Assembly: GCA_035610835.1 (NCBI GenBank) | Contig: CM069454.1 | Coordinates: forward strand, 1,737,117-1,801,116 | Direction of reading: 5' to 3' | Length of the DNA stretch: 64,000 bases | DNA from: Ophiura sarsii | Taxonomy: Eukaryota > Echinodermata > Ophiuroidea > Amphilepidida > Ophiuridae | Shown: positions 4,730 to 54,973 of the stretch, piece after piece | Layout: each line of letters starts with the position of its first letter | Numbering within the stretch: position 1 is the stretch's first letter | Notes under the pieces: generated by a model | Told to the model about the DNA's origin: nothing | The model's database searches: none | What the model saw: only the letters and a program-made list of their open reading frames with translations | Program-made: the position numbers and the translations under genes

Positions 4730-4825
4730 CTGCATTTCCTGTTGCACCACCATCCGCCACAACTGTTAGACTCAGTTTGCTTCCTTCTAAAACAAAATAC
4801 TGTTCATCGGCAAGCTGTAGTACAC
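4730..4825 (-). CDS. Calx-beta-like exon alpha, copy 3
   Basis: Intact 96-nt exon with acceptor TTTTCAG and donor GCAG|GTAAAA on the minus strand, in phase with beta copy 2 at 3845-4155. It is the last alpha exon before the satellite; the next one to the right is missing because the array replaced it. Confidence 0.6.
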
Positions 4826-5696
4826 CTGAAAATGAAAAGAAAAGTAACAGTTGTCCGTTAAATTCACCATTGTTTAGTTGTTTTAATTTGTACTACATTT
4901 AGATTCCTCTCTTACCATTGATACGTATAGATTGTTTAACTTGTTCTTCCCTATATTCAAACCCAATAAAATAGGAGGAAACAAAATATTCGACAAGGGG
5001 GGACACACAACTACAAAATGTCCAAATTGATTCACCGACGACGAGGACACACTATAATATAAAGAACGAGGAATCATACTATAGTGAAATTATCCAATAT
5101 ATATTTGTTAGTTGTCAAAGGATCCCATTTTAGTCCACCCTTTTTGTTTCGATGCATGGTATTCTCATCACACACATGTACAGCAGCTATGTTTATTGTA
5201 TCATTCAAAGATAGACACATTTTTGACCATTTGCGCATTATTTAAAATCAAAAGGCTTTGCCATCGTCACCTGTGATTGCGGTATATGAATAGAATCACA
5301 AAGCTGAAAGTGATGGACTTTGAACATTTACCATAACTATAGAGCATGTTTCTACTTGGGAAATTAACGGTAATTACCGCTTATTTGCCCAGTAGAAACT
5401 GCCAGATAACGCCTATTAACGCTAAGTTTTGTAACCATAAAAACCTTTTCAAACCATGGTTTTTTAATTGTGATTAGCGCTAACTCGCACAGTAAAAACA
5501 CCACCCATTAAATCCTTACGCTAAGTTCTTGTGATTCAGTAGTATACACGTACATCCGGGATTATACGCACTGTGACTATGTGTTTACAACGAATGTCAT
5601 TTTCTTATTTGGTATTTGTGTTGTTAACATGCAATGTTAAACAAATAAATCGTTATCAATCTTTATAAATAATGTGCAGTCTTTGATAGCAAATTA

Positions 5697-6079
5697 TCAC
5701 AAGGTAACTAACCAAATATATTTCAATAACAAAATCAAAATTAGAATAACCCTAACCCCCGGTTTAGTGTTTTTAAATAATCTGAGATATATCTTTGCAA
5801 GTATTTTAGAAATAGAATCCCAAAGTTGAGTACAGTCTTTTTGCGACTCTTTTTGACTCATCACCTTGTAGAACATTTTACCTGTTGCGTCAAGCACACA
5901 CACTTCAGCTGTACTAATATCTCCCAATGCGTCACCAGCGGTTAAACCACCCAATGTAATTGTAGTACATTCAACATCTTCAATATCATCGTCAACCTTA
6001 GCCTCAATGAAATCGACTAATCGTTTTTCGGTGTCGCCAGCCGCTAATGCTACCGTTCCGTCAACAGTAAAACCGATAT
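5697..6079 (-). pseudogene. Calx-beta-like terminal exon beta, copy 3, cut by the satellite
   Basis: The exon lacks its first 24 nt and its acceptor, because the sequence switches to satellite after ACCGATAT at 6079. The frame is otherwise open. The TAG stop of copies 1 and 2 is changed to AAG, so the frame reads on through LRLFKNTKPG to a stop at 5697-5699. Without an acceptor it cannot be spliced as a beta exon. Confidence 0.6.
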
Positions 6080-6267
6080 GTTGATTATGCTAATTGAATT
6101 CATATCATAACAACTTCAACTCGAAGTCTACGCAAATACATCATAATATCTTGTTCTGTACAACATCAATACGAACAATTGCTTGTTTTACGTCAGTATT
6201 TAACTTGATTTACCAACGTCTTTACCCACCCATGATTACTTGATCTATCGTCATTCAGATTTTTATA

Positions 6268-6294
6268 CCTACCAAAGCCGCCATGTTTGGTAGG
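6268..6294. repeat. perfect 9-bp inverted repeat in each monomer
   Basis: CCTACCAAA at 6268-6276 pairs with TTTGGTAGG at 6286-6294 around a 9-nt loop. It recurs every 1,470 bp; in the second monomer the first base is G (7738), which breaks the terminal pair. It lies about 160 bp upstream of the TATA box. Confidence 0.85.
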
Positions 6295-6428
6295 CCTAGT
6301 CTGAAGACGGATATGACAAACAATCATTTAGACCGGTTTTACTTGACCACTCAAACAATTCAATAGAATAACGATTTGTTTATGCGTCGTCATACCAGTT
6401 GTAACTGGAATTCTCTGTTGCCACGGCC

Positions 6429-6438
6429 TATATAAAAG
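6429..6438 (+). promoter_or_regulatory. TATA box, first of 14 in the satellite
   Basis: TATATAAAAG in a locally GC-rich setting (CACGGCC before, CCACGCACGCACC after), followed by the E-box CACGTG. It is the best core-promoter match in the monomer and recurs every 1,470 bp. If it works, RNA would start near 6460 and reach the hammerhead about 215 nt later. Function is inferred from sequence only. Confidence 0.45.
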
Positions 6439-6550
6439 CCACGCACGCACCACGTGACAACATGCTGGCTATCTGTTAGATAGTCTATAGATATCACTCA
6501 CAACGATACGAGCATTCATTTAGATAACATCATAGTTTGAAAGCTAAGCA

Positions 6551-6605
6551 GCATGCAACATTATGCCTACATAAATAGGCCAATATCCAATCATAATGTT
6601 GATGC
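6551..6605. repeat. inverted repeat upstream of the hammerhead
   Basis: GCATGCAACATTATG at 6551-6565 pairs with CATAATGTTGATGC at 6592-6605, with one bulged base and ten perfect contiguous pairs. It is present in all monomers. On a satellite RNA it would form a stable hairpin about 65 nt before the ribozyme. Confidence 0.75.
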
Positions 6606-6669
6606 TTTGCTTGCTTCTAAACGACAAATTAGTCATGTCATTGCTCTATCTGTTAAATATCTATTTCCT

Positions 6670-6744
6670 CTACCGCCTCTGATGAGGATCTCACTCTAAC
6701 TATCAGAAGATCCGAAACTAGTCAGGCTATTTTATCCGACGTAG
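6670..6744 (+). ncRNA. type I hammerhead ribozyme, satellite copy 1
   Basis: All core positions are present in order. CTGATGA is at 6679-6685. Stem II is GGATCT 6686-6691 with AGATCC 6708-6713, six perfect pairs with a 16-nt loop. GAAA is at 6714-6717. Stem III is the palindrome ACTAGT 6717-6722, which allows only two or three pairs within one molecule. The cleavage triplet GUC is at 6721-6723, with the cut predicted after 6723. Stem I pairs GCCT 6675-6678 with AGGC 6724-6727; a further CTAC/GTAG pairing (6670-6673, 6741-6744) is possible beyond an internal loop. Natural satellite hammerheads share this open stem I and tiny stem III and are known to act as dimers. The upstream ACTAGT-like site at 6628-6633 has the T allele here. 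Confidence 0.88.
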
Positions 6745-6883
6745 CTTAATCTATACTTATGTACCATCATGCGCACGTGTAATTCTACAGGTTTAATCAA
6801 GGCCTACCACTATCTATTTTGATGATGCATGCATTATGATCAACATATCAACACTTTATTGCATATCCACATAATTTTACTCT

Positions 6884-6899
6884 GATAATGTGCATTATC
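6884..6899. repeat. 16-bp cruciform-type palindrome in each monomer
   Basis: GATAATG TG CATTATC: seven perfect pairs around two bases, 45 bp before the 64-codon frame. It is present in every copy. Confidence 0.7.
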
Positions 6900-6943
6900 C
6901 ACAGCGTATCGGTTTTTCATGCTGTTTGGGCGGACCACACTAG

Positions 6944-7138
6944 ATGCTAGCGAGTCACCATTACTCAATAGTCCTAGTGATACTATACTTTGTTTTATCA
7001 CCCAGCTCATCGTTTTGTCTAAAAATGTTCGAGTTTGGGAGTCTGCTACGCAATAGATACTATGTACCCGTGCCTAACCGATTATCTAGTATTCAAAATA
7101 CTATTACCCGATACTACATTATCAGCCATATTTACTAA
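6944..7138 (+). CDS. 64-codon open frame in each satellite monomer, doubtful gene
   Basis: ATG-initiated frame repeated unchanged in all 14 copies (8414, 9884, 11354, 12824, 14294, 15764, 17234, 18707, 20177, 21647, 23117, 24587 and 26057 are the other starts). Residues 8-18 (SIVLVILYFVL) are hydrophobic, like a signal or membrane segment; the rest resembles nothing I know. It begins 221 nt after the predicted ribozyme cut. Conservation says nothing about selection, because the whole monomer is equally conserved. It may be chance. Confidence 0.15.
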   Translation: MLASHHYSIVLVILYFVLSPSSSFCLKMFEFGSLLRNRYYVPVPNRLSSIQNTITRYYIISHIY

Positions 7139-7222
7139 TTACAATACCCATGCAATGTACCGATATGTTACTTTCATTTAATGATCTAGTATTCAAATAT
7201 ACTATTAACCCGATAATGCATC
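7082..7222. repeat. diverged direct subrepeat inside the monomer
   Basis: ATCTAGTATTCAAAATACTA near 7084 recurs as ATCTAGTATTCAAATATACT near 7185, each followed by a form of TTACCCGATA. The monomer was therefore partly built by internal duplication before it was amplified. Confidence 0.7.
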
Positions 7223-8139
7223 ATCATCATCATAGATATTATACTATCATAAACTGGGGCCTACCAGTGTAGAATTACTGATATCGGCAATTTACTACAT
7301 ACAACTGATTGCTTCGAGTCCCTCCTCGTTTTAAACTTAACAGCTGAATATCATCAACATATTCAATATTTTAAGACTATTTAACTACGGCATTCTACCA
7401 AGGCCTATCCATATCTATATCATAAATAATATTTATTATTATATTACATTAATGTAAAGGATGGCCTATACCATTTGCCTGGTTATAGTTACGTACTGTT
7501 GGTTTTGACATACTATCTGCAGATAACCTGCATAAAGTCACGGCATTTTATCAATTATGCTAATTGAATTCATATCATAACAACTTCAACTCGAAGTCTA
7601 CGCAAATACATCATAATATCTTGTTCTGTACAACATCAATACGAACAATTGCTTGTTTTACGTCAGTATTTAACTTGATTTACCAACGTCTTTACCCACC
7701 CATGATTACTTGATCTATCGTCATTCAGATTTTTATAGCTACCAAAGCCGCCATGTTTGGTAGGCCTAGTCTGAAGACGGATATGACAAACAATCATTTA
7801 GACCGGTTTTACTTGACCACTCAAACAATACAATAGAATAACGATTTGTTTATGCGTCGTCATACCAGTTGTAACTGGAATTCTCTGTTGCCACGGCCTA
7901 TATAAAAGCCACGCACGCACCACGTGACAACATGCTGGCTATCTGTTAGATAGTCTATAGATATCACTCACAACGATACGAGCATTCATTTAGATAACAT
8001 CATAGTTTGAAAGCTAAGCAGCATGCAACATTATGCCTACATAAATAGGCCAATATCCAATCATAATGTTGATGCTTTGCTTGCTTCTAAACGACAAACT
8101 AGTCATGTCATTGCTCTATCTGTTAAATATCTATTTCCT

Positions 8140-8214
8140 CTACCGCCTCTGATGAGGATCTCACTCTAACTATCAGAAGATCCGAAACTAGTCAGGCTAT
8201 TTTATCCGACGTAG
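8140..8214 (+). ncRNA. hammerhead ribozyme, satellite copy 2
   Basis: Core and stems identical to copy 1; cut predicted after 8193. The upstream partner site at 8098-8103 carries the C allele, making a full ACTAGT. Confidence 0.88.
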
Positions 8215-9609
8215 CTTAATCTATACTTATGTACCATCATGCGCACGTGTAATTCTACAGGTTTAATCAAGGCCTACCACTATCTATTTTGATGATGCAT
8301 GCATTATGATCAACATATCAACACTTTATTGCATATCCACATAATTTTACTCTGATAATGTGCATTATCCACAGCGTATCGGTTTTTCATGCTGTTTGGG
8401 CGGACCACACTAGATGCTAGCGAGTCACCATTACTCAATAGTCCTAGTGATACTATACTTTGTTTTATCACCCAGCTCATCGTTTTGTCTAAAAATGTTC
8501 GAGTTTGGGAGTCTGCTACGCAATAGATACTATGTACCCGTGCCTAACCGATTATCTAGTATTCAAAATACTATTACCCGATACTACATTATCAGCCATA
8601 TTTACTAATTACAATACCCATGCAATGTACCGATATGTTACTTTCATTTAATGATCTAGTATTCAAATATACTATTAACCCGATAATGCATCATCATCAT
8701 CATAGATATTATACTATCATAAACTGGGGCCTACCAGTGTAGAATTACTGATATCGGCAATTTACTACATACAACTGATTGCTTCGAGTCCCTCCTCGTT
8801 TTAAACTTAACAGCTGAATATCATCAACATATTCAATATTTTAAGACTATTTAACTACGGCATTCTACCAAGGCCTATCCATATCTATATCATAAATAAT
8901 ATTTATTATTATATTACATTAATGTAAAGGATGGCCTATACCATTTGCCTGGTTATAGTTACGTACTGTTGGTTTTGACATACTATCTGCAGATAACCTG
9001 CATAAAGTCACGGCATTTTATCAATTATGCTAATTGAATTCATATCATAACAACTTCAACTCGAAGTCTACGCAAATACATCATAATATCTTGTTCTGTA
9101 CAACATCAATACGAACAATTGCTTGTTTTACGTCAGTATTTAACTTGATTTACCAACGTCTTTACCCACCCATGATTACTTGATCTATCGTCATTCAGAT
9201 TTTTATACCTACCAAAGCCGCCATGTTTGGTAGGCCTAGTCTGAAGACGGATATGACAAACAATCATTTAGACCGGTTTTACTTGACCACTCAAACAATA
9301 CAATAGAATAACGATTTGTTTATGCGTCGTCATACCAGTTGTAACTGGAATTCTCTGTTGCCACGGCCTATATAAAAGCCACGCACGCACCACGTGACAA
9401 CATGCTGGCTATCTGTTAGATAGTCTATAGATATCACTCACAACGATACGAGCATTCATTTAGATAACATCATAGTTTGAAAGCTAAGCAGCATGCAACA
9501 TTATGCCTACATAAATAGGCCAATATCCAATCATAATGTTGATGCTTTGCTTGCTTCTAAACGACAAACTAGTCATGTCATTGCTCTATCTGTTAAATAT
9601 CTATTTCCT

Positions 9610-9684
9610 CTACCGCCTCTGATGAGGATCTCACTCTAACTATCAGAAGATCCGAAACTAGTCAGGCTATTTTATCCGACGTAG
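9610..9684 (+). ncRNA. hammerhead ribozyme, satellite copy 3
   Basis: Same core; cut predicted after 9663; C allele at the upstream ACTAGT site. Confidence 0.88.
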
Positions 9685-11079
9685 CTTAATCTATACTTAT
9701 GTACCATCATGCGCACGTGTAATTCTACAGGTTTAATCAAGGCCTACCACTATCTATTTTGATGATGCATGCATTATGATCAACATATCAACACTTTATT
9801 GCATATCCACATAATTTTACTCTGATAATGTGCATTATCCACAGCGTATCGGTTTTTCATGCTGTTTGGGCGGACCACACTAGATGCTAGCGAGTCACCA
9901 TTACTCAATAGTCCTAGTGATACTATACTTTGTTTTATCACCCAGCTCATCGTTTTGTCTAAAAATGTTCGAGTTTGGGAGTCTGCTACGCAATAGATAC
10001 TATGTACCCGTGCCTAACCGATTATCTAGTATTCAAAATACTATTACCCGATACTACATTATCAGCCATATTTACTAATTACAATACCCATGCAATGTAC
10101 CGATATGTTACTTTCATTTAATGATCTAGTATTCAAATATACTATTAACCCGATAATGCATCATCATCATCATAGATATTATACTATCATAAACTGGGGC
10201 CTACCAGTGTAGAATTACTGATATCGGCAATTTACTACATACAACTGATTGCTTCGAGTCCCTCCTCGTTTTAAACTTAACAGCTGAATATCATCAACAT
10301 ATTCAATATTTTAAGACTATTTAACTACGGCATTCTACCAAGGCCTATCCATATCTATATCATAAATAATATTTATTATTATATTACATTAATGTAAAGG
10401 ATGGCCTATACCATTTGCCTGGTTATAGTTACGTACTGTTGGTTTTGACATACTATCTGCAGATAACCTGCATAAAGTCACGGCATTTTATCAATTATGC
10501 TAATTGAATTCATATCATAACAACTTCAACTCGAAGTCTACGCAAATACATCATAATATCTTGTTCTGTACAACATCAATACGAACAATTGCTTGTTTTA
10601 CGTCAGTATTTAACTTGATTTACCAACGTCTTTACCCACCCATGATTACTTGATCTATCGTCATTCAGATTTTTATACCTACCAAAGCCGCCATGTTTGG
10701 TAGGCCTAGTCTGAAGACGGATATGACAAACAATCATTTAGACCGGTTTTACTTGACCACTCAAACAATACAATAGAATAACGATTTGTTTATGCGTCGT
10801 CATACCAGTTGTAACTGGAATTCTCTGTTGCCACGGCCTATATAAAAGCCACGCACGCACCACGTGACAACATGCTGGCTATCTGTTAGATAGTCTATAG
10901 ATATCACTCACAACGATACGAGCATTCATTTAGATAACATCATAGTTTGAAAGCTAAGCAGCATGCAACATTATGCCTACATAAATAGGCCAATATCCAA
11001 TCATAATGTTGATGCTTTGCTTGCTTCTAAACGACAAACTAGTCATGTCATTGCTCTATCTGTTAAATATCTATTTCCT

Positions 11080-11154
11080 CTACCGCCTCTGATGAGGATC
11101 TCACTCTAACTATCAGAAGATCCGAAACTAGTCAGGCTATTTTATCCGACGTAG
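11080..11154 (+). ncRNA. hammerhead ribozyme, satellite copy 4
   Basis: Same core; cut predicted after 11133; C allele upstream. Confidence 0.88.
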
Positions 11155-12549
11155 CTTAATCTATACTTATGTACCATCATGCGCACGTGTAATTCTACAG
11201 GTTTAATCAAGGCCTACCACTATCTATTTTGATGATGCATGCATTATGATCAACATATCAACACTTTATTGCATATCCACATAATTTTACTCTGATAATG
11301 TGCATTATCCACAGCGTATCGGTTTTTCATGCTGTTTGGGCGGACCACACTAGATGCTAGCGAGTCACCATTACTCAATAGTCCTAGTGATACTATACTT
11401 TGTTTTATCACCCAGCTCATCGTTTTGTCTAAAAATGTTCGAGTTTGGGAGTCTGCTACGCAATAGATACTATGTACCCGTGCCTAACCGATTATCTAGT
11501 ATTCAAAATACTATTACCCGATACTACATTATCAGCCATATTTACTAATTACAATACCCATGCAATGTACCGATATGTTACTTTCATTTAATGATCTAGT
11601 ATTCAAATATACTATTAACCCGATAATGCATCATCATCATCATAGATATTATACTATCATAAACTGGGGCCTACCAGTGTAGAATTACTGATATCGGCAA
11701 TTTACTACATACAACTGATTGCTTCGAGTCCCTCCTCGTTTTAAACTTAACAGCTGAATATCATCAACATATTCAATATTTTAAGACTATTTAACTACGG
11801 CATTCTACCAAGGCCTATCCATATCTATATCATAAATAATATTTATTATTATATTACATTAATGTAAAGGATGGCCTATACCATTTGCCTGGTTATAGTT
11901 ACGTACTGTTGGTTTTGACATACTATCTGCAGATAACCTGCATAAAGTCACGGCATTTTATCAATTATGCTAATTGAATTCATATCATAACAACTTCAAC
12001 TCGAAGTCTACGCAAATACATCATAATATCTTGTTCTGTACAACATCAATACGAACAATTGCTTGTTTTACGTCAGTATTTAACTTGATTTACCAACGTC
12101 TTTACCCACCCATGATTACTTGATCTATCGTCATTCAGATTTTTATACCTACCAAAGCCGCCATGTTTGGTAGGCCTAGTCTGAAGACGGATATGACAAA
12201 CAATCATTTAGACCGGTTTTACTTGACCACTCAAACAATACAATAGAATAACGATTTGTTTATGCGTCGTCATACCAGTTGTAACTGGAATTCTCTGTTG
12301 CCACGGCCTATATAAAAGCCACGCACGCACCACGTGACAACATGCTGGCTATCTGTTAGATAGTCTATAGATATCACTCACAACGATACGAGCATTCATT
12401 TAGATAACATCATAGTTTGAAAGCTAAGCAGCATGCAACATTATGCCTACATAAATAGGCCAATATCCAATCATAATGTTGATGCTTTGCTTGCTTCTAA
12501 ACGACAAACTAGTCATGTCATTGCTCTATCTGTTAAATATCTATTTCCT

Positions 12550-12624
12550 CTACCGCCTCTGATGAGGATCTCACTCTAACTATCAGAAGATCCGAAACTA
12601 GTCAGGCTATTTTATCCGACGTAG
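12550..12624 (+). ncRNA. hammerhead ribozyme, satellite copy 5
   Basis: Same core; cut predicted after 12603; C allele upstream. Confidence 0.88.
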
Positions 12625-14019
12625 CTTAATCTATACTTATGTACCATCATGCGCACGTGTAATTCTACAGGTTTAATCAAGGCCTACCACTATCTATTTT
12701 GATGATGCATGCATTATGATCAACATATCAACACTTTATTGCATATCCACATAATTTTACTCTGATAATGTGCATTATCCACAGCGTATCGGTTTTTCAT
12801 GCTGTTTGGGCGGACCACACTAGATGCTAGCGAGTCACCATTACTCAATAGTCCTAGTGATACTATACTTTGTTTTATCACCCAGCTCATCGTTTTGTCT
12901 AAAAATGTTCGAGTTTGGGAGTCTGCTACGCAATAGATACTATGTACCCGTGCCTAACCGATTATCTAGTATTCAAAATACTATTACCCGATACTACATT
13001 ATCAGCCATATTTACTAATTACAATACCCATGCAATGTACCGATATGTTACTTTCATTTAATGATCTAGTATTCAAATATACTATTAACCCGATAATGCA
13101 TCATCATCATCATAGATATTATACTATCATAAACTGGGGCCTACCAGTGTAGAATTACTGATATCGGCAATTTACTACATACAACTGATTGCTTCGAGTC
13201 CCTCCTCGTTTTAAACTTAACAGCTGAATATCATCAACATATTCAATATTTTAAGACTATTTAACTACGGCATTCTACCAAGGCCTATCCATATCTATAT
13301 CATAAATAATATTTATTATTATATTACATTAATGTAAAGGATGGCCTATACCATTTGCCTGGTTATAGTTACGTACTGTTGGTTTTGACATACTATCTGC
13401 AGATAACCTGCATAAAGTCACGGCATTTTATCAATTATGCTAATTGAATTCATATCATAACAACTTCAACTCGAAGTCTACGCAAATACATCATAATATC
13501 TTGTTCTGTACAACATCAATACGAACAATTGCTTGTTTTACGTCAGTATTTAACTTGATTTACCAACGTCTTTACCCACCCATGATTACTTGATCTATCG
13601 TCATTCAGATTTTTATACCTACCAAAGCCGCCATGTTTGGTAGGCCTAGTCTGAAGACGGATATGACAAACAATCATTTAGACCGGTTTTACTTGACCAC
13701 TCAAACAATACAATAGAATAACGATTTGTTTATGCGTCGTCATACCAGTTGTAACTGGAATTCTCTGTTGCCACGGCCTATATAAAAGCCACGCACGCAC
13801 CACGTGACAACATGCTGGCTATCTGTTAGATAGTCTATAGATATCACTCACAACGATACGAGCATTCATTTAGATAACATCATAGTTTGAAAGCTAAGCA
13901 GCATGCAACATTATGCCTACATAAATAGGCCAATATCCAATCATAATGTTGATGCTTTGCTTGCTTCTAAACGACAAACTAGTCATGTCATTGCTCTATC
14001 TGTTAAATATCTATTTCCT

Positions 14020-14094
14020 CTACCGCCTCTGATGAGGATCTCACTCTAACTATCAGAAGATCCGAAACTAGTCAGGCTATTTTATCCGACGTAG
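14020..14094 (+). ncRNA. hammerhead ribozyme, satellite copy 6
   Basis: Same core; cut predicted after 14073; C allele upstream. Confidence 0.88.
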
Positions 14095-15489
14095 CTTAAT
14101 CTATACTTATGTACCATCATGCGCACGTGTAATTCTACAGGTTTAATCAAGGCCTACCACTATCTATTTTGATGATGCATGCATTATGATCAACATATCA
14201 ACACTTTATTGCATATCCACATAATTTTACTCTGATAATGTGCATTATCCACAGCGTATCGGTTTTTCATGCTGTTTGGGCGGACCACACTAGATGCTAG
14301 CGAGTCACCATTACTCAATAGTCCTAGTGATACTATACTTTGTTTTATCACCCAGCTCATCGTTTTGTCTAAAAATGTTCGAGTTTGGGAGTCTGCTACG
14401 CAATAGATACTATGTACCCGTGCCTAACCGATTATCTAGTATTCAAAATACTATTACCCGATACTACATTATCAGCCATATTTACTAATTACAATACCCA
14501 TGCAATGTACCGATATGTTACTTTCATTTAATGATCTAGTATTCAAATATACTATTAACCCGATAATGCATCATCATCATCATAGATATTATACTATCAT
14601 AAACTGGGGCCTACCAGTGTAGAATTACTGATATCGGCAATTTACTACATACAACTGATTGCTTCGAGTCCCTCCTCGTTTTAAACTTAACAGCTGAATA
14701 TCATCAACATATTCAATATTTTAAGACTATTTAACTACGGCATTCTACCAAGGCCTATCCATATCTATATCATAAATAATATTTATTATTATATTACATT
14801 AATGTAAAGGATGGCCTATACCATTTGCCTGGTTATAGTTACGTACTGTTGGTTTTGACATACTATCTGCAGATAACCTGCATAAAGTCACGGCATTTGA
14901 TCAATTATGCTAATTGAATTCATATCATAACAACTTCAACTCGAAGTCTACGCAAATACATCATAATATCTTGTTCTGTACAACATCAATACGAACAATT
15001 GCTTGTTTTACGTCAGTATTTAACTTGATTTACCAACGTCTTTACCCACCCATGATTACTTGATCTATCGTCATTCAGATTTTTATACCTACCAAAGCCG
15101 CCATGTTTGGTAGGCCTAGTCTGAAGACGGATATGACAAACAATCATTTAGACCGGTTTTACTTGACCACTCAAACAATACAATATAATAACGATTTGTT
15201 TATGCGTCGTCATACCAGTTGTAACTGGAATTCTCTGTTGCCACGGCCTATATAAAAGCCACGCACGCACCACGTGACAACATGCTGGCTATCTGTTAGA
15301 TAGTCTATAGATATCACTCACAACGATACGAGCATTCATTTAGATAACATCATAGTTTGAAAGCTAAGCAGCATGCAACATTATGCCTACATAAATAGGC
15401 CAATATCCAATCATAATGTTGATGCTTTGCTTGCTTCTAAACGACAAACTAGTCATGTCATTGCTCTATCTGTTAAATATCTATTTCCT

Positions 15490-15564
15490 CTACCGCCTCT
15501 GATGAGGATCTCACTCTAACTATCAGAAGATCCGAAACTAGTCAGGCTATTTTATCCGACGTAG
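15490..15564 (+). ncRNA. hammerhead ribozyme, satellite copy 7
   Basis: Same core; cut predicted after 15543; C allele upstream. This monomer has two private changes outside the ribozyme (14899 and 15186). Confidence 0.88.
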
Positions 15565-16959
15565 CTTAATCTATACTTATGTACCATCATGCGCACGTGT
15601 AATTCTACAGGTTTAATCAAGGCCTACCACTATCTATTTTGATGATGCATGCATTATGATCAACATATCAACACTTTATTGCATATCCACATAATTTTAC
15701 TCTGATAATGTGCATTATCCACAGCGTATCGGTTTTTCATGCTGTTTGGGCGGACCACACTAGATGCTAGCGAGTCACCATTACTCAATAGTCCTAGTGA
15801 TACTATACTTTGTTTTATCACCCAGCTCATCGTTTTGTCTAAAAATGTTCGAGTTTGGGAGTCTGCTACGCAATAGATACTATGTACCCGTGCCTAACCG
15901 ATTATCTAGTATTCAAAATACTATTACCCGATACTACATTATCAGCCATATTTACTAATTACAATACCCATGCAATGTACCGATATGTTACTTTCATTTA
16001 ATGATCTAGTATTCAAATATACTATTAACCCGATAATGCATCATCATCATCATAGATATTATACTATCATAAACTGGGGCCTACCAGTGTAGAATTACTG
16101 ATATCGGCAATTTACTACATACAACTGATTGCTTCGAGTCCCTCCTCGTTTTAAACTTAACAGCTGAATATCATCAACATATTCAATATTTTAAGACTAT
16201 TTAACTACGGCATTCTACCAAGGCCTATCCATATCTATATCATAAATAATATTTATTATTATATTACATTAATGTAAAGGATGGCCTATACCATTTGCCT
16301 GGTTATAGTTACGTACTGTTGGTTTTGACATACTATCTGCAGATAACCTGCATAAAGTCACGGCATTTTATCAATTATGCTAATTGAATTCATATCATAA
16401 CAACTTCAACTCGAAGTCTACGCAAATACATCATAATATCTTGTTCTGTACAACATCAATACGAACAATTGCTTGTTTTACGTCAGTATTTAACTTGATT
16501 TACCAACGTCTTTACCCACCCATGATTACTTGATCTATCGTCATTCAGATTTTTATACCTACCAAAGCCGCCATGTTTGGTAGGCCTAGTCTGAAGACGG
16601 ATATGACAAACAATCATTTAGACCGGTTTTACTTGACCACTCAAACAATACAATAGAATAACGATTTGTTTATGCGTCGTCATACCAGTTGTAACTGGAA
16701 TTCTCTGTTGCCACGGCCTATATAAAAGCCACGCACGCACCACGTGACAACATGCTGGCTATCTGTTAGATAGTCTATAGATATCACTCACAACGATACG
16801 AGCATTCATTTAGATAACATCATAGTTTGAAAGCTAAGCAGCATGCAACATTATGCCTACATAAATAGGCCAATATCCAATCATAATGTTGATGCTTTGC
16901 TTGCTTCTAAACGACAAATTAGTCATGTCATTGCTCTATCTGTTAAATATCTATTTCCT

Positions 16960-17034
16960 CTACCGCCTCTGATGAGGATCTCACTCTAACTATCAGAAGA
17001 TCCGAAACTAGTCAGGCTATTTTATCCGACGTAG
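16960..17034 (+). ncRNA. hammerhead ribozyme, satellite copy 8
   Basis: Same core; cut predicted after 17013; T allele upstream. This monomer carries the CCC insertion further downstream at 17548-17550. Confidence 0.88.
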
Positions 17035-18432
17035 CTTAATCTATACTTATGTACCATCATGCGCACGTGTAATTCTACAGGTTTAATCAAGGCCTACCAC
17101 TATCTATTTTGATGATGCATGCATTATGATCAACATATCAACACTTTATTGCATATCCACATAATTTTACTCTGATAATGTGCATTATCCACAGCGTATC
17201 GGTTTTTCATGCTGTTTGGGCGGACCACACTAGATGCTAGCGAGTCACCATTACTCAATAGTCCTAGTGATACTATACTTTGTTTTATCACCCAGCTCAT
17301 CGTTTTGTCTAAAAATGTTCGAGTTTGGGAGTCTGCTACGCAATAGATACTATGTACCCGTGCCTAACCGATTATCTAGTATTCAAAATACTATTACCCG
17401 ATACTACATTATCAGCCATATTTACTAATTACAATACCCATGCAATGTACCGATATGTTACTTTCATTTAATGATCTAGTATTCAAATATACTATTAACC
17501 CGATAATGCATCATCATCATCATAGATATTATACTATCATAAACTGGCCCGGCCTACCAGTGTAGAATTACTGATATCGGCAATTTACTACATACAACTG
17601 ATTGCTTCGAGTCCCTCCTCGTTTTAAACTTAACAGCTGAATATCATCAACATATTCAATATTTTAAGACTATTTAACTACGGCATTCTACCAAGGCCTA
17701 TCCATATCTATATCATAAATAATATTTATTATTATATTACATTAATGTAAAGGATGGCCTATACCATTTGCCTGGTTATAGTTACGTACTGTTGGTTTTG
17801 ACATACTATCTGCAGATAACCTGCATAAAGTCACGGCATTTTATCAATTATGCTAATTGAATTCATATCATAACAACTTCAACTCGAAGTCTACGCAAAT
17901 ACATCATAATATCTTGTTCTGTACAACATCAATACGAACAATTGCTTGTTTTACGTCAGTATTTAACTTGATTTACCAACGTCTTTACCCACCCATGATT
18001 ACTTGATCTATCGTCATTCAGATTTTTATACCTACCAAAGCCGCCATGTTTGGTAGGCCTAGTCTGAAGACGGATATGACAAACAATCATTTAGACCGGT
18101 TTTACTTGACCACTCAAACAATACAATAGAATAACGATTTGTTTATGCGTCGTCATACCAGTTGTAACTGGAATTCTCTGTTGCCACGGCCTATATAAAA
18201 GCCACGCACGCACCACGTGACAACATGCTGGCTATCTGTTAGATAGTCTATAGATATCACTCACAACGATACGAGCATTCATTTAGATAACATCATAGTT
18301 TGAAAGCTAAGCAGCATGCAACATTATGCCTACATAAATAGGCCAATATCCAATCATAATGTTGATGCTTTGCTTGCTTCTAAACGACAAATTAGTCATG
18401 TCATTGCTCTATCTGTTAAATATCTATTTCCT

Positions 18433-18507
18433 CTACCGCCTCTGATGAGGATCTCACTCTAACTATCAGAAGATCCGAAACTAGTCAGGCTATTTTATCC
18501 GACGTAG
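18433..18507 (+). ncRNA. hammerhead ribozyme, satellite copy 9
   Basis: Same core; cut predicted after 18486; T allele upstream. Confidence 0.88.
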
Positions 18508-19902
18508 CTTAATCTATACTTATGTACCATCATGCGCACGTGTAATTCTACAGGTTTAATCAAGGCCTACCACTATCTATTTTGATGATGCATGCATTAT
18601 GATCAACATATCAACACTTTATTGCATATCCACATAATTTTACTCTGATAATGTGCATTATCCACAGCGTATCGGTTTTTCATGCTGTTTGGGCGGACCA
18701 CACTAGATGCTAGCGAGTCACCATTACTCAATAGTCCTAGTGATACTATACTTTGTTTTATCACCCAGCTCATCGTTTTGTCTAAAAATGTTCGAGTTTG
18801 GGAGTCTGCTACGCAATAGATACTATGTACCCGTGCCTAACCGATTATCTAGTATTCAAAATACTATTACCCGATACTACATTATCAGCCATATTTACTA
18901 ATTACAATACCCATGCAATGTACCGATATGTTACTTTCATTTAATGATCTAGTATTCAAATATACTATTAACCCGATAATGCATCATCATCATCATAGAT
19001 ATTATACTATCATAAACTGGGGCCTACCAGTGTAGAATTACTGATATCGGCAATTTACTACATACAACTGATTGCTTCGAGTCCCTCCTCGTTTTAAACT
19101 TAACAGCTGAATATCATCAACATATTCAATATTTTAAGACTATTTAACTACGGCATTCTACCAAGGCCTATCCATATCTATATCATAAATAATATTTATT
19201 ATTATATTACATTAATGTAAAGGATGGCCTATACCATTTGCCTGGTTATAGTTACGTACTGTTGGTTTTGACATACTATCTGCAGATAACCTGCATAAAG
19301 TCACGGCATTTTATCAATTATGCTAATTGAATTCATATCATAACAACTTCAACTCGAAGTCTACGCAAATACATCATAATATCTTGTTCTGTACAACATC
19401 AATACGAACAATTGCTTGTTTTACGTCAGTATTTAACTTGATTTACCAACGTCTTTACCCACCCATGATTACTTGATCTATCGTCATTCAGATTTTTATA
19501 CCTACCAAAGCCGCCATGTTTGGTAGGCCTAGTCTGAAGACGGATATGACAAACAATCATTTAGACCGGTTTTACTTGACCACTCAAACAATACAATAGA
19601 ATAACGATTTGTTTATGCGTCGTCATACCAGTTGTAACTGGAATTCTCTGTTGCCACGGCCTATATAAAAGCCACGCACGCACCACGTGACAACATGCTG
19701 GCTATCTGTTAGATAGTCTATAGATATCACTCACAACGATACGAGCATTCATTTAGATAACATCATAGTTTGAAAGCTAAGCAGCATGCAACATTATGCC
19801 TACATAAATAGGCCAATATCCAATCATAATGTTGATGCTTTGCTTGCTTCTAAACGACAAACTAGTCATGTCATTGCTCTATCTGTTAAATATCTATTTC
19901 CT

Positions 19903-19977
19903 CTACCGCCTCTGATGAGGATCTCACTCTAACTATCAGAAGATCCGAAACTAGTCAGGCTATTTTATCCGACGTAG
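19903..19977 (+). ncRNA. hammerhead ribozyme, satellite copy 10
   Basis: Same core; cut predicted after 19956; C allele upstream. Private T-to-C change at 20406. Confidence 0.88.
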
Positions 19978-21372
19978 CTTAATCTATACTTATGTACCAT
20001 CATGCGCACGTGTAATTCTACAGGTTTAATCAAGGCCTACCACTATCTATTTTGATGATGCATGCATTATGATCAACATATCAACACTTTATTGCATATC
20101 CACATAATTTTACTCTGATAATGTGCATTATCCACAGCGTATCGGTTTTTCATGCTGTTTGGGCGGACCACACTAGATGCTAGCGAGTCACCATTACTCA
20201 ATAGTCCTAGTGATACTATACTTTGTTTTATCACCCAGCTCATCGTTTTGTCTAAAAATGTTCGAGTTTGGGAGTCTGCTACGCAATAGATACTATGTAC
20301 CCGTGCCTAACCGATTATCTAGTATTCAAAATACTATTACCCGATACTACATTATCAGCCATATTTACTAATTACAATACCCATGCAATGTACCGATATG
20401 TTACTCTCATTTAATGATCTAGTATTCAAATATACTATTAACCCGATAATGCATCATCATCATCATAGATATTATACTATCATAAACTGGGGCCTACCAG
20501 TGTAGAATTACTGATATCGGCAATTTACTACATACAACTGATTGCTTCGAGTCCCTCCTCGTTTTAAACTTAACAGCTGAATATCATCAACATATTCAAT
20601 ATTTTAAGACTATTTAACTACGGCATTCTACCAAGGCCTATCCATATCTATATCATAAATAATATTTATTATTATATTACATTAATGTAAAGGATGGCCT
20701 ATACCATTTGCCTGGTTATAGTTACGTACTGTTGGTTTTGACATACTATCTGCAGATAACCTGCATAAAGTCACGGCATTTTATCAATTATGCTAATTGA
20801 ATTCATATCATAACAACTTCAACTCGAAGTCTACGCAAATACATCATAATATCTTGTTCTGTACAACATCAATACGAACAATTGCTTGTTTTACGTCAGT
20901 ATTTAACTTGATTTACCAACGTCTTTACCCACCCATGATTACTTGATCTATCGTCATTCAGATTTTTATACCTACCAAAGCCGCCATGTTTGGTAGGCCT
21001 AGTCTGAAGACGGATATGACAAACAATCATTTAGACCGGTTTTACTTGACCACTCAAACAATACAATAGAATAACGATTTGTTTATGCGTCGTCATACCA
21101 GTTGTAACTGGAATTCTCTGTTGCCACGGCCTATATAAAAGCCACGCACGCACCACGTGACAACATGCTGGCTATCTGTTAGATAGTCTATAGATATCAC
21201 TCACAACGATACGAGCATTCATTTAGATAACATCATAGTTTGAAAGCTAAGCAGCATGCAACATTATGCCTACATAAATAGGCCAATATCCAATCATAAT
21301 GTTGATGCTTTGCTTGCTTCTAAACGACAAATTAGTCATGTCATTGCTCTATCTGTTAAATATCTATTTCCT

Positions 21373-21447
21373 CTACCGCCTCTGATGAGGATCTCACTCT
21401 AACTATCAGAAGATCCGAAACTAGTCAGGCTATTTTATCCGACGTAG
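21373..21447 (+). ncRNA. hammerhead ribozyme, satellite copy 11
   Basis: Same core; cut predicted after 21426; T allele upstream. Confidence 0.88.
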
Positions 21448-22842
21448 CTTAATCTATACTTATGTACCATCATGCGCACGTGTAATTCTACAGGTTTAAT
21501 CAAGGCCTACCACTATCTATTTTGATGATGCATGCATTATGATCAACATATCAACACTTTATTGCATATCCACATAATTTTACTCTGATAATGTGCATTA
21601 TCCACAGCGTATCGGTTTTTCATGCTGTTTGGGCGGACCACACTAGATGCTAGCGAGTCACCATTACTCAATAGTCCTAGTGATACTATACTTTGTTTTA
21701 TCACCCAGCTCATCGTTTTGTCTAAAAATGTTCGAGTTTGGGAGTCTGCTACGCAATAGATACTATGTACCCGTGCCTAACCGATTATCTAGTATTCAAA
21801 ATACTATTACCCGATACTACATTATCAGCCATATTTACTAATTACAATACCCATGCAATGTACCGATATGTTACTTTCATTTAATGATCTAGTATTCAAA
21901 TATACTATTAACCCGATAATGCATCATCATCATCATAGATATTATACTATCATAAACTGGGGCCTACCAGTGTAGAATTACTGATATCGGCAATTTACTA
22001 CATACAACTGATTGCTTCGAGTCCCTCCTCGTTTTAAACTTAACAGCTGAATATCATCAACATATTCAATATTTTAAGACTATTTAACTACGGCATTCTA
22101 CCAAGGCCTATCCATATCTATATCATAAATAATATTTATTATTATATTACATTAATGTAAAGGATGGCCTATACCATTTGCCTGGTTATAGTTACGTACT
22201 GTTGGTTTTGACATACTATCTGCAGATAACCTGCATAAAGTCACGGCATTTTATCAATTATGCTAATTGAATTCATATCATAACAACTTCAACTCGAAGT
22301 CTACGCAAATACATCATAATATCTTGTTCTGTACAACATCAATACGAACAATTGCTTGTTTTACGTCAGTATTTAACTTGATTTACCAACGTCTTTACCC
22401 ACCCATGATTACTTGATCTATCGTCATTCAGATTTTTATACCTACCAAAGCCGCCATGTTTGGTAGGCCTAGTCTGAAGACGGATATGACAAACAATCAT
22501 TTAGACCGGTTTTACTTGACCACTCAAACAATACAATAGAATAACGATTTGTTTATGCGTCGTCATACCAGTTGTAACTGGAATTCTCTGTTGCCACGGC
22601 CTATATAAAAGCCACGCACGCACCACGTGACAACATGCTGGCTATCTGTTAGATAGTCTATAGATATCACTCACAACGATACGAGCATTCATTTAGATAA
22701 CATCATAGTTTGAAAGCTAAGCAGCATGCAACATTATGCCTACATAAATAGGCCAATATCCAATCATAATGTTGATGCTTTGCTTGCTTCTAAACGACAA
22801 ATTAGTCATGTCATTGCTCTATCTGTTAAATATCTATTTCCT

Positions 22843-22917
22843 CTACCGCCTCTGATGAGGATCTCACTCTAACTATCAGAAGATCCGAAACTAGTCAGGC
22901 TATTTTATCCGACGTAG
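22843..22917 (+). ncRNA. hammerhead ribozyme, satellite copy 12
   Basis: Same core; cut predicted after 22896; T allele upstream. Confidence 0.88.
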
Positions 22918-24312
22918 CTTAATCTATACTTATGTACCATCATGCGCACGTGTAATTCTACAGGTTTAATCAAGGCCTACCACTATCTATTTTGATGATG
23001 CATGCATTATGATCAACATATCAACACTTTATTGCATATCCACATAATTTTACTCTGATAATGTGCATTATCCACAGCGTATCGGTTTTTCATGCTGTTT
23101 GGGCGGACCACACTAGATGCTAGCGAGTCACCATTACTCAATAGTCCTAGTGATACTATACTTTGTTTTATCACCCAGCTCATCGTTTTGTCTAAAAATG
23201 TTCGAGTTTGGGAGTCTGCTACGCAATAGATACTATGTACCCGTGCCTAACCGATTATCTAGTATTCAAAATACTATTACCCGATACTACATTATCAGCC
23301 ATATTTACTAATTACAATACCCATGCAATGTACCGATATGTTACTTTCATTTAATGATCTAGTATTCAAATATACTATTAACCCGATAATGCATCATCAT
23401 CATCATAGATATTATACTATCATAAACTGGGGCCTACCAGTGTAGAATTACTGATATCGGCAATTTACTACATACAACTGATTGCTTCGAGTCCCTCCTC
23501 GTTTTAAACTTAACAGCTGAATATCATCAACATATTCAATATTTTAAGACTATTTAACTACGGCATTCTACCAAGGCCTATCCATATCTATATCATAAAT
23601 AATATTTATTATTATATTACATTAATGTAAAGGATGGCCTATACCATTTGCCTGGTTATAGTTACGTACTGTTGGTTTTGACATACTATCTGCAGATAAC
23701 CTGCATAAAGTCACGGCATTTTATCAATTATGCTAATTGAATTCATATCATAACAACTTCAACTCGAAGTCTACGCAAATACATCATAATATCTTGTTCT
23801 GTACAACATCAATACGAACAATTGCTTGTTTTACGTCAGTATTTAACTTGATTTACCAACGTCTTTACCCACCCATGATTACTTGATCTATCGTCATTCA
23901 GATTTTTATACCTACCAAAGCCGCCATGTTTGGTAGGCCTAGTCTGAAGACGGATATGACAAACAATCATTTAGACCGGTTTTACTTGACCACTCAAACA
24001 ATACAATAGAATAACGATTTGTTTATGCGTCGTCATACCAGTTGTAACTGGAATTCTCTGTTGCCACGGCCTATATAAAAGCCACGCACGCACCACGTGA
24101 CAACATGCTGGCTATCTGTTAGATAGTCTATAGATATCACTCACAACGATACGAGCATTCATTTAGATAACATCATAGTTTGAAAGCTAAGCAGCATGCA
24201 ACATTATGCCTACATAAATAGGCCAATATCCAATCATAATGTTGATGCTTTGCTTGCTTCTAAACGACAAACTAGTCATGTCATTGCTCTATCTGTTAAA
24301 TATCTATTTCCT

Positions 24313-24387
24313 CTACCGCCTCTGATGAGGATCTCACTCTAACTATCAGAAGATCCGAAACTAGTCAGGCTATTTTATCCGACGTAG
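24313..24387 (+). ncRNA. hammerhead ribozyme, satellite copy 13
   Basis: Same core; cut predicted after 24366; C allele upstream. Private C-to-T change at 24845. Confidence 0.88.
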
Positions 24388-25782
24388 CTTAATCTATACT
24401 TATGTACCATCATGCGCACGTGTAATTCTACAGGTTTAATCAAGGCCTACCACTATCTATTTTGATGATGCATGCATTATGATCAACATATCAACACTTT
24501 ATTGCATATCCACATAATTTTACTCTGATAATGTGCATTATCCACAGCGTATCGGTTTTTCATGCTGTTTGGGCGGACCACACTAGATGCTAGCGAGTCA
24601 CCATTACTCAATAGTCCTAGTGATACTATACTTTGTTTTATCACCCAGCTCATCGTTTTGTCTAAAAATGTTCGAGTTTGGGAGTCTGCTACGCAATAGA
24701 TACTATGTACCCGTGCCTAACCGATTATCTAGTATTCAAAATACTATTACCCGATACTACATTATCAGCCATATTTACTAATTACAATACCCATGCAATG
24801 TACCGATATGTTACTTTCATTTAATGATCTAGTATTCAAATATATTATTAACCCGATAATGCATCATCATCATCATAGATATTATACTATCATAAACTGG
24901 GGCCTACCAGTGTAGAATTACTGATATCGGCAATTTACTACATACAACTGATTGCTTCGAGTCCCTCCTCGTTTTAAACTTAACAGCTGAATATCATCAA
25001 CATATTCAATATTTTAAGACTATTTAACTACGGCATTCTACCAAGGCCTATCCATATCTATATCATAAATAATATTTATTATTATATTACATTAATGTAA
25101 AGGATGGCCTATACCATTTGCCTGGTTATAGTTACGTACTGTTGGTTTTGACATACTATCTGCAGATAACCTGCATAAAGTCACGGCATTTTATCAATTA
25201 TGCTAATTGAATTCATATCATAACAACTTCAACTCGAAGTCTACGCAAATACATCATAATATCTTGTTCTGTACAACATCAATACGAACAATTGCTTGTT
25301 TTACGTCAGTATTTAACTTGATTTACCAACGTCTTTACCCACCCATGATTACTTGATCTATCGTCATTCAGATTTTTATACCTACCAAAGCCGCCATGTT
25401 TGGTAGGCCTAGTCTGAAGACGGATATGACAAACAATCATTTAGACCGGTTTTACTTGACCACTCAAACAATACAATAGAATAACGATTTGTTTATGCGT
25501 CGTCATACCAGTTGTAACTGGAATTCTCTGTTGCCACGGCCTATATAAAAGCCACGCACGCACCACGTGACAACATGCTGGCTATCTGTTAGATAGTCTA
25601 TAGATATCACTCACAACGATACGAGCATTCATTTAGATAACATCATAGTTTGAAAGCTAAGCAGCATGCAACATTATGCCTACATAAATAGGCCAATATC
25701 CAATCATAATGTTGATGCTTTGCTTGCTTCTAAACGACAAATTAGTCATGTCATTGCTCTATCTGTTAAATATCTATTTCCT

Positions 25783-25857
25783 CTACCGCCTCTGATGAGG
25801 ATCTCACTCTAACTATCAGAAGATCCGAAACTAGTCAGGCTATTTTATCCGACGTAG
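25783..25857 (+). ncRNA. hammerhead ribozyme, satellite copy 14
   Basis: Same core; cut predicted after 25836; T allele upstream. The monomer itself is cut short at 26259, about 400 bp after the ribozyme. Confidence 0.88.
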
Positions 25858-26900
25858 CTTAATCTATACTTATGTACCATCATGCGCACGTGTAATTCTA
25901 CAGGTTTAATCAAGGCCTACCACTATCTATTTTGATGATGCATGCATTATGATCAACATATCAACACTTTATTGCATATCCACATAATTTTACTCTGATA
26001 ATGTGCATTATCCACAGCGTATCGGTTTTTCATGCTGTTTGGGCGGACCACACTAGATGCTAGCGAGTCACCATTACTCAATAGTCCTAGTGATACTATA
26101 CTTTGTTTTATCACCCAGCTCATCGTTTTGTCTAAAAATGTTCGAGTTTGGGAGTCTGCTACGCAATAGATACTATGTACCCGTGCCTAACCGATTATCT
26201 AGTATTCAAAATACTATTACCCGATACTACATTATCAGCCATATTTACTAATTACAATATATATTTATTAGTTGTCAAAGGATCCCATTTTAGTCCACCC
26301 TTTTTGTTTCGATGCATGGTATTCTCATCACACACATGTACAGCAGCTATTATTATTGTACCATTCAAAGATAGACACATTTTTGACCATTTGCGCATTA
26401 TTTAAAATCAAAAGGCTTTACCATCGTCACCTGTGATTGCGGTATATGAATAGAATCACAAAGCTGAAAGTGATGGACTTTGAACATTTACCATAACTAT
26501 AGAGCATGTTTCTACTTGGGAAATTAACGGTAATTACCGTTTAATTGCCCAGTAGAAACAGCCAGATAACGCTTATTAACGCTAAGTTTTGTAACCATAA
26601 AAACCTTTTCAAACCATGGTTTGTTAATTGTGATTAGCGCTAACTCGCACAGTAAAAACAACCACCCATTAAATCCTTACGCTAAGTTCTTGTGATTCAG
26701 TAGTATACACGTACATCCGGGATTATGCGCACTGTGGGTGTGTGTTTACAACGAATGTCATTTTCTTATTTGGTATTTGTGTTGTTAACATGCAATGTTA
26801 AAAAATAAATCGTTATCAATCTTTATAAATAATGTGCAGTCTTTGGTAGCAAATTATCACAAGGTAACTAACCAAATATATTTCAATAACAAAATCAAAA

Positions 26901-27262
26901 TTAGAATAACCCTAACCCCGGTTTAGTGTTTTTAAATAATCTGAGATATATCTTTGCAAGTATTTTAGAAATAGAATCCCAAAGTTGAGTACAGTCTTTT
27001 TGCGACTCTTTTTGACTCATCACCTTGTAGAACATTTTACCTGTTGCGTCAAGCACACACACTTCAGCTGTACTAATATCTCCCAATGCGTCACCAGCGG
27101 TTAAACCACCCAATGTAATTGTAGTACATTCAACATCTTCAATATCATCGTCAACCTTAGCCTCAATGAAATCGACTAATCGTTTTTCGGTGTCGCCAGC
27201 CGCTAATGCTACCGTTCCGTCAACAGTAAAACCGATATCGGTGTCATCGGCAATCGTTATTG
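26901..27262 (-). CDS. Calx-beta-like terminal exon beta, copy 4
   Basis: Best candidate for the working 3' exon. The acceptor GTGTTAAG is intact at the 27263 side and the exon starts with the two bases that complete the alpha codon. It encodes the DDTDIGFTVDG, AAGDTEKRL, DDDIEDVE and VCVLDATG segments of the Calx-beta-type domain and a charged tail. The TAG of copies 1 and 2 is AAG here, so the protein is longer and ends LRLFKNTKPGLGLF before the TAA at 26901-26903. With alpha copy 4 and the signal exon at 40611-40680 the coding total is 528 nt, a multiple of three, giving 175 residues. The family assignment is by pattern; a different beta-sandwich domain is possible. Confidence 0.65.
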
Positions 27263-27753
27263 CTTAACACAAAATAAATATAATACATAAGATGGTAGAC
27301 ACTAAGTAAATAGGTGTGCAATTTTGAAAAGGATCACATAATATTGCTTTTAAGGACAATTTATTATGTATGCATTAAATTATCGGGTTATTTTGTAACA
27401 TGAAATGTATGCAACATTGGAGATACTAGACAATTAGAGATATTAGACCCTTCATATTCCATTTTATTATTATTACGAAATGACATTGAAGCACTAATTA
27501 CGCCATAATGATCTCCATATTAAAATGTTGGAACGAACCTTTCAATGGGACTTGAATTGTTCCATTCATGATGTTTACAACGAGGCTTCATGTAGCATAT
27601 TTATCCGAATTTGAAAAACATGCTCGAACAATTACGCAGATCACACCTTAAGCGGGGAGGTCACTATCGGTATTGCATAGCGCCTGGCAGGCGTTAGAAT
27701 TGCTCGTACCAAAATATTGGGATCTTCCAACATACTACGAATAGGAGTTTTAC

Positions 27754-27849
27754 CTGCATTTCCTGTTGCACCACCATCCGCCACAACTGTTAGACTCAGT
27801 TTGCTTCCTTCTAAAACTAAATACTGTTCATCGACAAGCTGTAGTACAC
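27754..27849 (-). CDS. Calx-beta-like exon alpha, copy 4
   Basis: 96-nt phase 1-1 exon, acceptor CATTTGCAG, donor GCAG|GTAAAACTCC on the minus strand. It codes the first strands of the domain (EGSKLSLTVVADGG) with two replacements relative to other copies, A-to-V and F-to-L, and no stop. The intron to beta copy 4 is 491 bp, shorter than the 574 bp elsewhere. It is the first alpha exon met by a transcript coming from the right, and the signal exon at 40611-40680 ends in the compatible phase. Confidence 0.65.
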
Positions 27850-28058
27850 CTGCAAATGAAAAGAAAAGTAACAGTTGTCCGTTAAATTCACCATTGTTTA
27901 GTTGTTTTATTTTGTACTACGTTTAGATTCCTCTCTTACCATTGTTACGTATAGATTGTTTAACTTGTTCTACCCTATACCCTACCTCTCCCAGTCAATG
28001 GAACGGCTGGGTGACGTTATTGGAAGATCGGTCTTCGATGGATCTACTATACACTATC

Positions 28059-28330
28059 AGAACAAAGGTTAAAATATTTAATCATGTTGGTTAACATTTT
28101 AACCAACGGGAGGTTACCAGATAACCACACAATTGGTTGATTAAAACCGTAACCAACAGCTGTTGATTAAACCTTTACCTGTGGTTGGTTACAATTGTTA
28201 ATCATTTGTTGGTTAATATGTTTTAACCAACAGTGGTTGGTAACTTTAACCCGCGGTTGGTTAAAAATGTTAATCATTTGTTGGTTAATATGTTTTAAGC
28301 AACAGTGTTTGGTTAAAAAATGTTGGTTAT
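28059..28330. repeat. cluster of TTGGTTAA / TTAACCAA words
   Basis: About a dozen forms of GGTTAA and TTAACC in both orientations, giving many short inverted repeats. Two longer direct copies begin GTTAATCATTTGTTGGTTAA (near 28197 and 28269). TTAACCAA words return at 28862-28995 in one orientation only. No coding potential seen. Confidence 0.7.
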
Positions 28331-54971: not shown

Positions 54972-54973
54972 TG

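Follow-up and report, generated by a model that had tools for sequence, protein, structure and literature searches.

A tandem array of 1,470-bp units was analysed in a 64,000-nt stretch of Ophiura sarsii DNA (assembly GCA_035610835.1, contig CM069454.1), the whole of which is referred to as the window. With a probability of about three in four, the array is considered to be a non-autonomous, non-coding retroelement in which a minimal type I hammerhead is embedded and which would be mobilised in trans by an endonuclease-lacking Penelope-like element (PLE) with two open reading frames (ORFs), ribozyme-cut RNA serving as the template. This reading is adopted because copies of the array family (family A) are dispersed and share a 3′ end, because the unit segment u746–904 is nearly identical to the end of the PLE, because chimeras of the PLE, family A and a sister family (family B) occur, because some copies start at the predicted cleavage site, and because the stems of the motif are kept by compensatory changes. 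Judged by its sequence relatives, the window array belongs, as a single locus, to a retroelement-like family dispersed in the genome.

The array was delimited by a BLAST comparison of the first unit with the window, which gave 13 full head-to-tail units and a terminal partial unit of 1,063 bp, as expected from the initial annotation, in which a 20-kb array of 1,470-bp monomers had been described. Coordinates of all features are collated in Table 1. Positions within a unit (u) are counted with u1 at 7554, which corresponds to 6084 in the first unit. The length is 1,470 bp in 12 of the 13 full units and 1,473 bp in the remaining one, the identity to the first unit is 99.7–99.9% within the window, and variation among the full units is confined to ten alignment columns (a single 3-base insertion accounting for three). 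The array contains no stop-to-stop ORF of at least 100 aa, and a tRNA scan returned no tRNA. The G+C content is approximately 0.35–0.37, and the array thus has the properties of a retrozyme as far as non-coding tandem organisation, a type I hammerhead and a G+C content below 45–50% are concerned. The embedded TATA box that had been annotated was found again as a TATA-like box upstream of the hammerhead motif and on the same strand.

Hammerhead motifs were located with a strict descriptor (stem I of at least 4 bp, CUGANGA, stem II of at least 4 bp, GAAA, A15.1...U16.1–H17). In the window it matched the 14 array motifs and one further motif at 55980 on the minus strand, that is, two distinct motifs; in 300 first-order Markov sequences (45,294 bp each, modelled on the window with the array cut to its first unit, both strands searched) it gave two matches, or 0.007 per sequence. 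The core (CUGANGA...GAA, A15.1–U16.1, H17) and stems I and II are present in all 14 array motifs, which are identical across the 120 bases compared. The presence of a hammerhead in every copy was thereby borne out, and the cleavage position given earlier, after 6723, agrees with the cut predicted here. The earlier description of the motif as complete had to be abandoned: helix III consists of the single pair A15.1–U16.1 closed by the palindromic tetraloop CUAG, and the motif belongs to the minimal, newt-like kind.

Six hammerheads of the genome were compared, namely those of family A, of family B (locus L030), of a diverged B copy (L046), of two PLEs designated PLE-A (L032) and PLE-B (L033), and the 55980 motif. 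Four standard stem I pairs and at least five stem II pairs are kept in all six, with the stem I strands GCCU/AGGC, GCAU/AUGC, GUAG/CUAC and GCUA/UAGC; in the five hammerheads other than that of the array, stem I is preserved through compensatory changes. A palindromic tetraloop replaces helix III in five of the six (CUAG three times, CCGG and CGCG once each), and the PLE-A hammerhead has, in our own reading, two helix III pairs and a UGCG loop. One core base has been lost from the diverged B copy (CTGATGG), whose cut, if any, would follow GTT. By analogy with newt and axolotl motifs, for which this is reported (PMC7229834, PMC6155905), palindromic tetraloops would let two motifs share helix III. 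The 55980 motif (55942–55986, minus strand, palindrome ACGCGT) is a lone minimal hammerhead that scored 17.7 bits against RF00163 in a 101-base search (E 0.043), under the gathering score of 34. It is situated between direct repeats of 775 bp (54967–55741 and 57045–57818, 99.7% identical), which may represent an incomplete tandem of another PLE-type element.

The distribution of the family was determined in the 1.57-Gb assembly (748 contigs), in which the window lies on contig C14. A 116-bp probe gave 374 first-look candidates, of which 40 were scored and all 40 were 100% identical. Exact searches returned 225 hammerhead 3′ halves and 175 copies of the sequence at which most copies end (the tail), and the first 100 tails listed of the 175 represent 45 loci. 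Unit length tends to be particular to each multi-copy locus (1448, 1449, 1322/1355, 1473 or 265/269 bp), some loci being mixed, e.g. one on C9; long units measure 1,322–1,481 bp at loci other than the window array, and those of L026 265/269 bp. Family B (L030) is 65% identical to family A over 1,383 aligned positions. The initial annotation had interpreted the window array as a satellite bearing a ribozyme. The array itself and its type I hammerhead-like motifs are real, and what that interpretation lacked is the dispersed retroelement-like family and the fixed 3′ end held in common with a PLE.

The outer ends of copies were read at the fetched loci. Ends that lay outside the stretch, were rearranged or formed an internal junction were left out (5′ ends of L009, L020, L021 and L028; 3′ ends of L009, L020 and L027), as was the duplicate 5′ end of the second copy in L011. 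Sixteen of 20 readable 3′ ends fall at u904–909 (...CTAGTGATACTATA(C)) and are followed by unrelated flanks, the 3′ end of L025 being situated on a PLE-type piece; the exceptions are L013 (u693), the second copy of L018 (u1417), L021 (u513) and the window array (u1063). The 18 readable 5′ ends, by comparison, are distributed over 17 places: one at u641 (L023), two at u384–386 (L015 and L032) and 15 at 15 other positions. Scattered 5′ ends combined with mostly one 3′ end are as expected from internally primed reverse transcription. The two copies starting at u384–386 begin 36–38 nt past the TATA-like box (L015:3884; L032:1–405) and may mark the transcription start. At 11 internal junctions, distributed over six loci, the tail gives way to the beginning of a further piece (L009, L017, L020 and L024, one each; L025, two; L026, five). 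No target-site duplication of 5–30 bp was found at any of the 13 insertions tested (L032 was skipped, its left flank being too short). At the inverted junction of L023 (approximately 3470–3492) a stuttered tail motif (CTATA repeats) was observed, as if the reverse transcriptase (RT) had slipped at the start site.

The same tail is found downstream of an RT-encoding ORF in L009 and L025. When the genome was searched with the RT ORF, 68 of 2,624 candidates were scored and at least 70 matches were obtained, some of them in tandem at 4,277–4,282 bp. PLE-A encodes an ORF1 of 250 aa (L032:390–1142) and an ORF2 of 706 aa with an RT domain, and carries a hammerhead motif at 3719; downstream of this motif lies a stretch 95% identical to u746–916 of the window array (172 positions). 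In L025 the identity to the shared end segment is 97% (159 positions). PLE-B encodes an ORF1 of 257 aa (L033:4225–4998) and an ORF2 of 720 aa, is organised in 4,277-bp tandem units with a terminal hammerhead motif (at 3417), and is 97% identical to family B pieces over 442 positions. PF00078 (RT) scored above its cut-off in the ORFs of L009, L032 and L033. No match to the GIY-YIG endonuclease of canonical PLEs was obtained in either ORF at E ≤ 5; the ORF1 products matched no Pfam family above cut-off, and that of L033 also had no homologue at E ≤ 0.001. Homologues of the RT numbered 219, and among the 120 listed five combine RT with GIY-YIG, the PLE hallmark; in a 65-row tree these five branch separately. 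The assignment as a PLE-type RT is based on PF00078 together with the GIY-YIG-bearing homologues. Among the named RT relatives listed, the nearest belong to the brittle star Amphiura filiformis (62 and 69% identity); none of the four RT loci compared exceeds 70% identity to these proteins.

Copies of the PLE and of the two families are also physically joined. On the minus strand of L009, family A units are followed by family B, the PLE ORF and the tail; in L025 family A units are joined to a PLE hammerhead segment. These joins would fit template jumping by one enzyme within one insertion. The PLE copy in L032 starts at a sequence that is found 30 nt past TATAAA in L033, and an inverted family A piece adjoins it. 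No telomeric repeats follow the PLE and family copies that were read. As it is devoid of an RT-encoding ORF (none of at least 100 aa), the array could at most be a non-autonomous derivative of a PLE.

Copies starting at the predicted cut were found at three loci and in two families. L026 contains five consecutive units of 265/269 bp, comprising at least three different sequences and joined as ...ACTATA|AGGCTATTTT, in which AGGC corresponds, to the base, to what the predicted cut would leave. When the start was left free within the 30-nt gap past the tail, four exact matches were obtained genome-wide; every one of them is in L026 and continues from the tail straight into AGGC, the fifth unit being mismatched. 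When a non-C base was required before AGGC, six family A matches were returned genome-wide: four in L026, one in L023, where a true start at AGGC (u641) is joined to an inverted piece, and one in L011, where two bases are inserted into an intact motif and no copy starts. A search of the same shape placed 14 nt downstream in family A gave no match in the genome. In family B, unrelated DNA in L049 (C19) is followed by a copy whose start coincides with the cleavage site of that family. The 5′ AGGC ends that had been predicted for the self-cleaved transcripts thus receive indirect support, from family copies at two loci and from the sister-family copy at its own cut.

Several results weigh against the preferred reading. 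Cleavage-site starts are rare in family A (five true starts, at two loci, versus 225 intact sites), the last two units of L026 may be a later duplication of the preceding two, and the corresponding search in family B gave four matches, of which one is a true start and three are intact mutated motifs on C10. For the hammerheads of PLE-A and PLE-B no cleavage-site start was found, the number of intact PLE sites being uncounted. If 5′ ends were uniformly distributed, the probability of two loci coinciding at one given base would be 7e-5 (18 ends) to 0.007 (175 ends); coincidence is unlikely, not astronomically so. Rfam returned the background-level result that the initial annotation had named as grounds for rejecting the ribozyme: no hammerhead model matched the array motif at the gathering level (window) or at E ≤ 10 (6600–8300 and 6655–6750), and a scan of the PLE hammerhead motif gave no hammerhead match. 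These misses were discounted because the Rfam models expect a longer helix III, and the comparison of the six hammerheads was given more weight. The RNAcofold optimum for two array hammerheads shows no duplex at the ACUAGU palindrome, and in the single-strand minimum-energy fold part of the core is paired. The loci were selected by identity to the hammerhead region, and the conservation of that region among them is consequently not evidence. Homogeneous units can also arise by unequal crossing-over. Finally, the window array does not end at the usual 3′ site, as is also the case in L013, the second copy of L018 and L021, and DNA recombination may have been the last step in its formation; the end at u1063 and the position inside a host duplication of approximately 1,948 bp imply that this array was also reshaped at the DNA level or was begun at another site.

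Of the alternatives, that of a canonical animal non-LTR retrozyme whose unit is unusually long fares best; it is a real possibility, although a doubtful one, and the distinction is partly a matter of naming. Like the retrozymes described by Cervera and de la Pena (2020, PMC7229834), the array is a non-coding tandem repeat of low G+C content with a type I hammerhead and no long ORF, and its weak helix III with a palindromic tetraloop resembles that of amphibian retrozymes, such as the axolotl HHR_Amex1 (PMC7229834). The unit of 1,470 bp, however, lies outside the range of 150–450 bp reported for animal retrozymes in PMC7229834 and PMC7761336, where these elements are also said to be promoterless and to lack a motif pointing to a partner; the family described here has a TATA-like box and a fixed 3′ end shared with a PLE, and shows no short target-site duplication at its 13 tested insertions. 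Since it exceeds the retrozyme size and encodes no RT, the element is provisionally classed as a long-unit, PLE-partnered, hammerhead-bearing non-autonomous element; it would work like an animal retrozyme and is tied by sequence to an endonuclease-lacking PLE.

Mobilisation by a PLE with no ribozyme cutting in vivo, the cleavage-site starts being due to stalling of the RT at the folded motif, is considered unlikely. Ribozyme mutants of an anole PLE are reported to insert equally well in vitro, and its authors saw no RNA-seq ends at the cut site (PMC11167929); the absence of cleavage-site starts in the PLEs of the present genome points the same way. Stalling would nevertheless be expected ahead of AGGC, which is the paired strand encountered first by the enzyme, rather than once this strand has been copied in full as far as the scissile bond, and the observed starts match the cut to the base at all three loci. 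A conventional DNA satellite, enlarged by unequal crossing-over and dispersed in DNA form (e.g. as extrachromosomal circles), its hammerhead a neutral relic and its 3′ end a breakpoint hot spot, would account for the very homogeneous units, the atypical 3′ end of the window array within a host tandem duplication and the separate unit length of each multi-copy locus, but is judged improbable in view of the single site shared by most outer 3′ ends against the scattered 5′ ends, the chimeras with an RT-coding element having the same end, the starts at the predicted cut in two families only 65% identical, and the stems kept by compensatory change.

The mobilisation in trans that is preferred here could proceed as follows. 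Transcription would start near u384–386, 3′ of the TATA-like box, and run through the array. Through the palindrome ACUAGU, hammerheads of adjacent units would pair with one another; their cleavage would yield RNAs of unit length that begin with AGGC, some of which would be circularised, probably by a host ligase. The RT of the PLE would bind the shared end segment and start internally at u904/905. A circle or multimer as template would give arrays of constant unit length, cut linear RNA copied to its 5′ end would give the 265/269-bp copies, and the enzyme could switch to a different RNA at the u904/905 start; the cDNA would be inserted without a short target-site duplication. Circles would be the simplest route to 13.7 near-identical units from an RNA that should be cut in every unit, and crossing-over after insertion would serve equally. 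At somewhat less than even odds, it is proposed that a PLE enzyme copying ribozyme-cut circular RNA builds arrays in one step, each array being a rolling-circle copy of one circle and the 265/269-bp copies the run-off of the cut linear form, whereby the hammerhead would turn a passenger of the PLE into satellite DNA. One RNA circle per array would result in a constant unit length particular to each locus.

Known systems share some of these features. The satellite hammerhead of newt and axolotl (HHR_Amex1) likewise has a one-pair helix III with a palindromic tetraloop, and a dimer is reported to be necessary for its efficient cutting; it differs in its 330-bp repeat and its sequence, and no partner element is identified there (PMC7229834, PMC6155905). 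The anole PLE PAc resembles the present elements in its tandem organisation, in a hammerhead near the repeat junction and in a fixed internal start in the tail, from which reverse transcription proceeds in vitro and by which genomic 3′ ends are explained (PMC11167929). PAc possesses a GIY-YIG endonuclease, and its authors saw no RNA ends at the cut, whereas the array family is non-coding, its PLE has no recognised endonuclease and some genomic copies start at the cut. Endonuclease-lacking PLEs and Terminons (PMC6431247) have two ORFs, no endonuclease domain, a length of 4–6 kb and hammerheads near the end, as do those described here; a difference is that the copies read in the present genome are not followed by telomeric repeats. 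In PMC7761336 the partner of animal retrozymes is called undetermined, with PLEs as likely candidates, and the role of the minimal PLE hammerhead a mystery. No report of a shared PLE end or of cleavage-site copies was found in a literature search to which most subscription papers were not open. If confirmed, a hammerhead satellite and a PLE with a common end segment at 95–97% identity would name such a partner, and would provide a genomic footprint of ribozyme cutting as well as a route from retrotransposon to satellite DNA. This cleavage-site footprint could be looked for in any long-read genome that contains hammerhead repeats. The link between the array and the PLE bears on the origin and movement of animal ribozyme satellites.

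Table 1. Coordinates of the array and of associated features in the window.
Feature	Position	Strand	Details
Tandem array	6084..26259	+	13 full units, 12 of them 1,470 bp and one 1,473 bp long; last unit incomplete (1,063 bp)
TATA-like box, first unit (recurs in each unit)	6430..6437	+	From sequence; two copies elsewhere start at u384–386 (6467–6469)
Type I hammerhead motif, first unit (14 identical copies in the array)	6675..6727	+	GCCU-CUGAUGA-GGAUCU..AGAUCC-GAA-A(CUAG)UC^AGGC; predicted cut after 6723
Hammerhead core, first unit	6679	+	Other 13 at 8149, 9619, 11089, 12559, 14029, 15499, 16969, 18442, 19912, 21382, 22852, 24322 and 25792
Segment u746–904, common with the end of the autonomous PLE	6829..6987	+	95–97% identity; most copies elsewhere terminate where this segment does (putative start of reverse transcription)
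Four-base stretch separating host DNA (to 6079) from the first unit	6080..6083		From sequence
Array 3′ junction, at u1063 (usually u904–909)	26259..26260		From sequence
Left host segment, part of the tandem host duplication of ~1,948 bp	5088..6079		98% identical to 26250–27238 across the array
Right flank, another copy of the ~1,948-bp host duplication	26250..27979		Resumes at the equivalent of 5088

As a candidate target-site duplication, the 992-bp repeat of host DNA on both sides of the array was considered and rejected, because its copies are 98% identical, compared with 99.7–99.9% for the array units, and because it continues the host tandem series. Insertion of the array with loss of approximately 957 bp of host sequence fits better. 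Short TTGGTTAA-type repeat families are situated near insertion sites (window 28208–28306; L044). The host duplication (window 1–6079 and 26250–27979) holds an exon-like ORF (AITIADDTDIGFTVDG...), and either the array interrupts the duplication or the duplication interrupts the array.

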